Source: Actinomycetota bacterium (lineage in GTDB: Bacteria > Actinomycetota > Actinomycetes > Nanopelagicales > Nanopelagicaceae). Taken from it: DNA of 64,000 bases. The translations under genes were made by a program, and so were the position numbers. The stretch lies in NCBI GenBank assembly GCA_009699205.1, contig WLOP01000001.1, positions 62,001 to 126,000 of the forward strand, given 5' to 3'. Of this stretch, positions 128 to 1,990 are shown piece by piece. Numbering within the stretch: position 1 is the stretch's first letter; each line of letters starts with the position of its first letter. The notes beneath the pieces were generated by a model. It did not search any database. It saw only the letters and a program-made list of their open reading frames with translations, and was not told where the DNA came from.

Positions 128-376
128 CTACGCAGTAGGTTCGAGGTTTTCAATCGTAAGAAGGCCTTCGTTGATTTCACGAAGTGCAATCGACAAAGGT
201 TTCTCATGTACATGCGTTTCAACCAGCGGTCCTACATATTCCAAAAGACCTTCACCCAATTGCGAGTAGTAAGCGTTGATCTGACGAGCTCGCTTTGCTG
301 CGTACAAGACAAGGCTGTACTTGGAACCGCTCTTATCGAGAAGTTCGTCTATCGGTGGATTGGTAATGCCGTCCAT
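128..376 (-). CDS. rpoZ: RNA polymerase omega subunit
   Basis: 82 residues, the usual size for omega. The conserved N-terminal part reads [11 protein letters not shown], then [17 protein letters not shown], the segment that in this family latches onto the beta-prime C terminus and helps RNA polymerase assemble. The C-terminal half ([15 protein letters not shown]) is also typical of actinobacterial omega. A strong AGGAGG ribosome binding site lies just before the ATG at 376. It sits 8 bases after the mIHF-guanylate kinase gene and before coaBC, the standard order. Omega also forms part of the ppGpp site in some bacteria; a rel gene lies at 29835-32000, but no link can be read from the sequence. 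Confidence 0.95.
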
Positions 377-384
377 TAAGCCTC

Positions 385-1260
385 CTAGTGAGTGGCCAAG
401 GATACCAGCCGCGCGACAACGTTCTCGACCTCATCATTTACGAACACCAGATCGAACTCCTTGGCAGCAGCCATCTCATTTTGAGCCAATTCCAGGCGAT
501 GTGCTCGCCTTTCAGGAGTATCTGAGCCCCTGGCCTCTAAACGAGCAACCAGATGTTCCCAACTTGGCGGTTGAAGGAAGACCAAAATTGCTTCTTTACT
601 GTGAGCTTTCACTTGGAAAGCTCCTTCGACCTCAATCTCCAAAAGTACATTTCTGCCTTGAACAAGAGCTTCTTCAACCCCCTTGCGAGGGGTGCCGTAA
701 CGGGCTCCAGCAAAAGATGCCCATTCTAAGAATTCATCAGTTGAAATCCCTTGGTCGAAACGTTCATCAGAAAAAAAATAATAATCAACGCCCTCTATCT
801 CACCGACTCGTGGCGAGCGAGTAGTGGCTGAAACGGATACCCAGAAATCTGACACTTCACGAAGGCGGATAGCAACGGTGCTTTTACCCACACCACCCGG
901 TCCTGATAAAACTATAAGTTTGCCGCGAGAAAGAGGTTCTGACTTTCCCGCAAATTCTGTAACTAAATCTGCGGTTTGCTTAACTCCTAAGCCTTGAATT
1001 CTACGTGTTGCAGAAATTCCGAATCTTTCCATCATGCCTGCAGCACGGATTTTGCCCACCCCTGGTATTGATTCGAGCAGTTCGCTCACTTTCATTTTTG
1101 CAATGAAAGGATCGCTTTTAGCCAGAGCGAGAACATCGTCAATTGTGATCTCATTGTTTTTTACTCGAGCTTTAACTGCAGCCCGACTCTTGCGAGATAA
1201 CGCAGCTTTGCGCAAGGCCACTGCCCTTTGCTCCGGGGTCAAAATCGGAGGATTCGCCAT
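385..1260 (-). CDS. gmk: Fusion of mIHF nucleoid-associated protein with guanylate kinase
   Basis: 291 residues, about 100 more than a normal guanylate kinase. Residues 1-105 match the actinobacterial integration host factor family (mIHF/sIHF): [14 protein letters not shown], then [16 protein letters not shown], then TRRIQGLG. Residues 113-291 are a complete guanylate kinase: P-loop GPGGVGKST at 120-128, GMP-binding [17 protein letters not shown] near 146-162, and ARYGTP near 186-191. The kinase makes GDP from GMP; mIHF binds and bends DNA. In Mycobacterium and Streptomyces these are two adjacent genes in the same order. Here no stop or start separates them; the linker is roughly residues 104-112. 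A -10 hexamer six bases before the ATG suggests its own leaderless promoter inside the pyr operon. Confidence 0.92.
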
Positions 1261-1266
1261 TTCTCT

Positions 1267-1272
1267 AATCTA
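1267..1272 (-). promoter_or_regulatory. -10 element for leaderless mIHF-gmk transcript
   Basis: On the minus strand TAGATT is followed by exactly six bases and then the ATG at 1260. TANNNT is the actinobacterial -10 pattern and the spacing would place transcription start at the A of the ATG. No ribosome binding site is visible before this gene, unlike rpoZ just downstream. No convincing -35 was seen. Motif-based call. Confidence 0.5.
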
Positions 1273-1279
1273 TCGTTAA

Positions 1280-1990
1280 CTAGAGATTCTTATTAATCTG
1301 CTCGGATATCTCAGATGCCTTCTTGGCCATTGCCGAAGCGCCTTGCTTCCATAAACCTGTAATGGGGCGTCCGATAACTACATAAGAGGCTCCAAGAGCC
1401 ACAGCGGCTTCCGGTGTCATTGTGCGCGCTTGGTCATCAGAAACGCCATGGTCGGCAGGTCGGACTCCAGGAGTAATAATCGAGATACCAGGACCAACGG
1501 CTTCTCGTATCGCGACCACTTCTAACGGGGAACAAACTATTGCTGCCGCACCTGCTTTAACAGCCAATTTCGCCATATTTGTTGCAGTATCTAGCGCGCG
1601 ACCTGCAAATCCTATTTCCCCAATTTCGCTATCACTAAGAGAGGTTAAAACCGTCACCGCAGTTATCTCTACAAGAGGGGCGTTTTCAACGGCTGCAGAA
1701 ATCATCGCACTTCCTCCCGAAGCATGAACAGTGAGAAATCTAGGCGCGAGATCGGTCACCTGAGCAACCGCAGATGCAACAGTATTCGGTATGTCATGCA
1801 ATTTTAGATCCAGAAATAGATCAGCACCGGAAATCTCGCGTATCTTCCTGACTCCTTCAGGTCCAAATTTCAAAAAGAACTCTAAACCCAATTTGTATGC
1901 GGCAATATATTCACTTGTCGTTTCAATCCAATTACGCGCCATGTCTAGATCAGGTGTATCCACGGCCAAAATAATTCTTGGATTATTCAC
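1280..1990 (-). CDS. pyrF: Orotidine 5'-phosphate decarboxylase
   Basis: 236 residues. Converts OMP to UMP, the last step of de novo pyrimidine synthesis. The catalytic motif D-x-K-x-x-D-I is DLKLHDI at residues 61-67, supplying the Asp-Lys-Asp network; VIGRPIT near the C terminus is the phosphate-binding segment. The length and FLDLKLHDIPNTV pattern fit the short bacterial PyrF type rather than the longer mycobacterial one. It overlaps the end of pyrD by 8 nt, so it is probably translationally coupled and last of the pyr genes proper. Confidence 0.95.
   Translation of the reverse strand: MNNPRIILAVDTPDLDMARNWIETTSEYIAAYKLGLEFFLKFGPEGVRKIREISGADLFLDLKLHDIPNTVASAVAQVTDLAPRFLTVHASGGSAMISAAVENAPLVEITAVTVLTSLSDSEIGEIGFAGRALDTATNMAKLAVKAGAAAIVCSPLEVVAIREAVGPGISIITPGVRPADHGVSDDQARTMTPEAAVALGASYVVIGRPITGLWKQGASAMAKKASEISEQINKNL

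Follow-up and report, generated by a model that had tools for sequence, protein, structure and literature searches.

In M. tuberculosis, mihF (Rv1388) is followed by gmk (Rv1389) and then by rpoZ, and mIHF is a free, very abundant and essential nucleoid protein (NAP) that is reported to rank among the ten most abundant proteins of this bacterium (PMC6155035). The sIHF protein of S. coelicolor (SCO1480; structures 4itq and 6bek) stands alone as well, with 107 aa and the sequence RRVRGLG. We analyzed a stretch of 64,000 nucleotides from a Nanopelagicales genome, hereafter the window, in which mIHF and guanylate kinase (Gmk) are encoded in the same order as in M. tuberculosis, with rpoZ downstream, but within one reading frame. 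A preliminary description of this DNA had stated that the two are separate adjacent genes in mycobacteria and Streptomyces; for other Actinobacteria, such an arrangement is borne out by M. tuberculosis and the split loci described below.

A single frame for mIHF and guanylate kinase

The locus comprises the following features.

385..1260, minus strand: mIHF-Gmk fusion gene, ATG start, 291 aa, conserved across the order
949..1260, minus strand: actinobacterial IHF domain, residues 1-104 (NF041260; 4itq/6tob by sequence; helical model of high pLDDT)
388..924, minus strand: guanylate kinase domain, residues 113-291 (TIGR03263; fold match to M. tuberculosis Gmk 1s4q/1znw)
925..948, minus strand: linker GKSEPLSR, residues 105-112 (8 residues), variable in relatives and within the lowest-confidence block of the model
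880..906, minus strand: P-loop of the kinase (residues 119-127, SGPGGVGKS), with little or no variation among 44 fused proteins
1000..1005, minus strand: Arg86-Arg87 of the RRxR motif, whose last Arg is Gln89 here (sequence comparison)
1280..1990, minus strand: pyrF, upstream neighbour (synteny)
128..376, minus strand: rpoZ (RNA polymerase omega), downstream neighbour (synteny)
1267..1272, minus strand: TAGATT, a -10-like hexamer (TANNNT) beginning 12 bases before the ATG, probably of a leaderless promoter

Both domains are complete, as had been proposed for residues 1-105 and 113-291, and the domain search placed both above curated cut-offs on one 291-aa protein. The NCBIfam profile for actinobacterial IHF, NF041260, matched residues 5-103 (E 6.4e-36; 122.9 bits vs a cut-off of 60; model positions 3-101 of 102), and that for guanylate kinase, TIGR03263, matched residues 113-289 (E 7.1e-63; 211.5 bits vs a cut-off of 160.45; model positions 1-178 of 180), so that both matches are full length. 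The Pfam matches, H2TH_5 (33-103) and Guanylate_kin (113-287), likewise exceeded their cut-offs. The closest solved structures are mIHF (6tob), S. coelicolor sIHF (4itq/6bek), which is the best sequence match to the N-terminal domain (E 4.4e-28) with RRVRGLG where the window has RRIQGLG, and M. tuberculosis Gmk, whose structures 1znw and 1s4q are the best matches to the kinase half.

No stop codon lies between the two domains in the window frame, and no in-frame ATG, GTG or TTG was found in the linker region, consistent with the earlier claim that neither a stop nor a ribosome binding site separates them. The frame holds the only Gmk and the only mIHF of the 1.42-Mb genome, which is 96% complete and in which no second, free copy of either was found. 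Unlike a stand-alone mIHF/sIHF of ~105 aa, the domain is thus fused to Gmk without a second copy; NF041260 is of the equivalog_domain type, which permits larger proteins. Since the genome keeps one HU-family protein (L133, G000:C10:38471-38740; an open frame of 176 codons vs a 90-position HU domain), mIHF-Gmk is not its sole nucleoid protein.

The AlphaFold2 model, built on 44 fused sequences, had a mean pLDDT of 92 and a pTM of 0.66, with an average of 67 in the block containing the linker. The predicted folds of both halves are intact, the Gmk half superposing on 1s4q/1znw, and no confident domain-domain packing was predicted; such values fit a flexible tether between two domains that each fold well. 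Neither the length nor the sequence of the linker is conserved among fused relatives, and no conserved cleavage motif was found in it across the 44 fused proteins. Several loci of the window's genus have linkers lacking ATG, GTG and TTG. Where the kinase begins in genus g9 and most of g11, AGGAG or GGAG precedes a TTG, ATG or GTG codon that is in frame (loci L049, L104, L042, L090, L091 and L092), and g12 retains an ATG near the old kinase start. Judging from these signals, a free kinase may be made as well in g9 and most of g11.

The gene order carB-pyrK-pyrD-pyrF-mihF/gmk-rpoZ is identical in fused and split genomes. Almost every locus from the window's genus and the sister genera (L004-L041) has a TANNNT hexamer at -12 from the ATG, and the loci that bear it have no clear Shine-Dalgarno sequence upstream of the ATG. 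This arrangement points to a probable leaderless transcript from a promoter inside the short pyrF-mihF gap. The loci of g8 and g15 (L084-L087, L097 and L098) share a GGTTTAATTA-like motif just upstream of their split mihF, which differs from the TANNNT found in the window's genus.

Distribution and origins of the fusion

The search of the order covered 296 genomes, 271 of which had a match. At all 150 places listed among the matches (150/150), a frame spanning both domains contained no internal stop, and complete one-contig genomes were among them. The fused state occurs in 11 of 17 genera (g1-g4, g9-g13, g16 and g17) and the two-gene state in the other six (g5, g6, g7, g8, g14 and g15), where the genes either overlap by a few bases or lie up to some tens of bases apart. 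Fused relatives carry one mIHF only. Because the fusion is conserved across the order, complete one-contig genomes included, chance, assembly error and an artefactual frameshift are excluded.

The basal genera of Nanopelagicales are split, and a further split group, g8/g15, is nested among fused genera in the tree. Holding all fused Nanopelagicales as one clade was rejected (AU p 0.033; 0% of bootstrap trees), which rules out one fusion event for the whole order without reversal. Either the gene fused once and was split again in g8/g15, or it fused two or three times; the backbone of this tree is weakly supported.

In the same class, a family designated f29, probably Microbacteriaceae, was fused in 25 of 25 intact loci from a sample of 26 genomes, the last locus being cut by contig ends; its genomes measure 2.8-4.4 Mb. 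Family f27 has all states: g82 and part of g96 are fused, g69, g77, g79, g110 and one member of g96 are split, and g56, g94 and g125 have no mIHF match at all. A normal Gmk together with no detectable mIHF was observed at L139, L140, L142, L146 and L148 of f27 and in genomes of families f43 and f5. Elsewhere in the phylum, mihF and gmk are often adjacent genes separated by one stop or more. Among the full-length places listed for the phylum sample, no fusion was found outside the class, and all those outside f29 and the window had at least one stop.

In a tree of carB, pyrK, pyrD, pyrF and rpoZ, f29 and f27 each neighboured a different split family and the fused Nanopelagicales took a third position, split rows separating the fused members of f29 and f27 from Nanopelagicales. 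Because this five-gene tree sets the three apart with split families between them, the fusion, on phylogenetic evidence, arose at least three times independently in the class. Each origin is read from the sequences as the loss of a stop (or of the frame) at a mihF-gmk junction that is ancient and closely spaced.

Constraint on the two halves

In the 44 fused proteins, the P-loop, the GMP site (SxTTRxPR, DY and YGT) and the later arginines of the kinase are invariant or nearly so. Tree lengths on a fixed topology gave Gmk/reference ratios of 0.87-1.47 across all groups, arguing that the kinase half evolves without acceleration in fused lineages. The corresponding mIHF/reference ratios were 1.34-2.16 in fused groups, 1.39 in split g8/g15, and 0.51, 0.97 and 0.63 in the other split groups; by these estimates the NAP half evolves roughly two to three times faster in fused lineages. 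As the mIHF ratio is raised and the Gmk ratio steady, mIHF appears to be under weaker or altered constraint, whereas the kinase does not. The fusion is not clearly the cause of the faster rate. Since g8/g15 share the tendency, and the mIHF of split f27/f32 members has 36-44% identity to that of the window, relaxed constraint on mIHF may have come first or made fusion possible, rather than being its consequence.

Within the mIHF half, R23, R26, G69, R86, G90, G92 and Q95 are invariant among the 44 fused proteins, and K30 and R72 are nearly so. The window retains the basic positions R23, R26, K30, K55, K57, K70, R72, R86 and R87, with Gln for the third Arg of RRxR, and the domain has a net charge of +8. 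These positions, in the long helix, the PGVGK turn and RRxR, are presumably DNA contacts. Almost every fused row has Gln, Ala or Gly in place of the last RRxR Arg, which the outgroups and the basal Nanopelagicales, all of them split, retain; replacement of this Arg may have weakened DNA binding.

Interpretation and comparison with known systems

We consider it probable that the gene encodes one bifunctional mIHF-Gmk protein and that the fusion chiefly represents operon compaction, nearly neutral in effect, through loss of a stop. The product would be a single ~32-kDa polypeptide, its N half the only mIHF-type nucleoid protein and its C half the only guanylate kinase, an essential enzyme converting GMP and ATP to GDP and ADP. 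Following the loss of the stop codon (or frame) at the abutting junction, both halves would function in the intact chain, with the flexible linker allowing each to act independently. If mIHF still binds DNA, the kinase would ride on DNA and the two activities would be locked at 1:1. The fusion would have been tolerated since the linker is flexible and the constraint on mIHF weak in these lineages. The preliminary description had suggested a neutral product of compaction, which agrees with recurrent fusion, a linker that varies and a faster-evolving mIHF half but sits less well with family f29; because f29 has the same fusion in genomes of 2.8-4.4 Mb, streamlining cannot by itself account for it.

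If both domains are functional, the kinase would, as a physical consequence, be tethered to the nucleoid. It is unlikely, though, that a DNA-tethered guanylate kinase has been repeatedly favoured by selection, with DNA-bound mIHF holding Gmk at the nucleoid, or DNA regulating the kinase, and the supply of GDP/GTP coupled to chromosome architecture. A fusion that arose independently in three or more lineages of the class and was long retained over most of the order would suit such a device, but the linker is conserved in neither length nor sequence, domain packing is not confidently predicted, the NAP half evolves faster rather than slower, f27 mixes fused, split and mIHF-less genomes, and adjacency by itself makes repeated fusion likely. 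The earlier suggestion that Gmk lies on the ppGpp path holds as a generic link only, the one RelA/SpoT protein of the genome being encoded some 30 kb from the fusion gene.

Cleavage of the chain after translation, or additional internal initiation, would leave the cell mainly with separate mIHF and Gmk. The AGGAG-type start codons at the kinase start in g9 and g11 and the ATG retained in g12 are compatible with this, but the start-free linkers of the window and several loci of its genus, and the lack of a conserved cleavage motif, make it quite unlikely. We regard as very unlikely that the mIHF half has stopped working as a NAP and survives as a decaying N-terminal extension of Gmk: its accelerated evolution in fused lineages, the lost third RRxR Arg and the missing mIHF matches in g56, g94 and g125 of f27 would be in keeping with decay, yet R23, R26 and R86 are invariant and K30 and R72 nearly so across the 44 sequences, the charge is +8, a confident helical fold is predicted, the family score is twice the cut-off, and this half is kept over most of the order.

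For a bifunctional protein, the forced 1:1 ratio would mean either that Gmk is as plentiful as a NAP or that mIHF has ceased to be an architectural protein of high abundance. Were the tethered kinase real, one molecule would couple guanine nucleotide supply with chromosome architecture. The repeated fusion, the nested split group and the loss of mIHF together provide a comparative system for studying what purpose mIHF abundance and mobility serve. The host group, Nanopelagicales, is among the most abundant bacterial groups of fresh water, and cultured members exist, making the question open to testing.

In the mainly open-access literature searched, no paper on a fusion of mIHF or a nucleoid protein with guanylate kinase was found. 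The mIHF-Gmk protein of f29 has the identical domain order in one frame and a single mIHF copy, as in the window, but differs by its independent origin and by an mIHF match that is more divergent and starts farther in from the N-terminus. M. tuberculosis, unlike the window, has two separate genes and proteins. Both families are already known, and the fusion is a curious variant of them, not a new kind of system.
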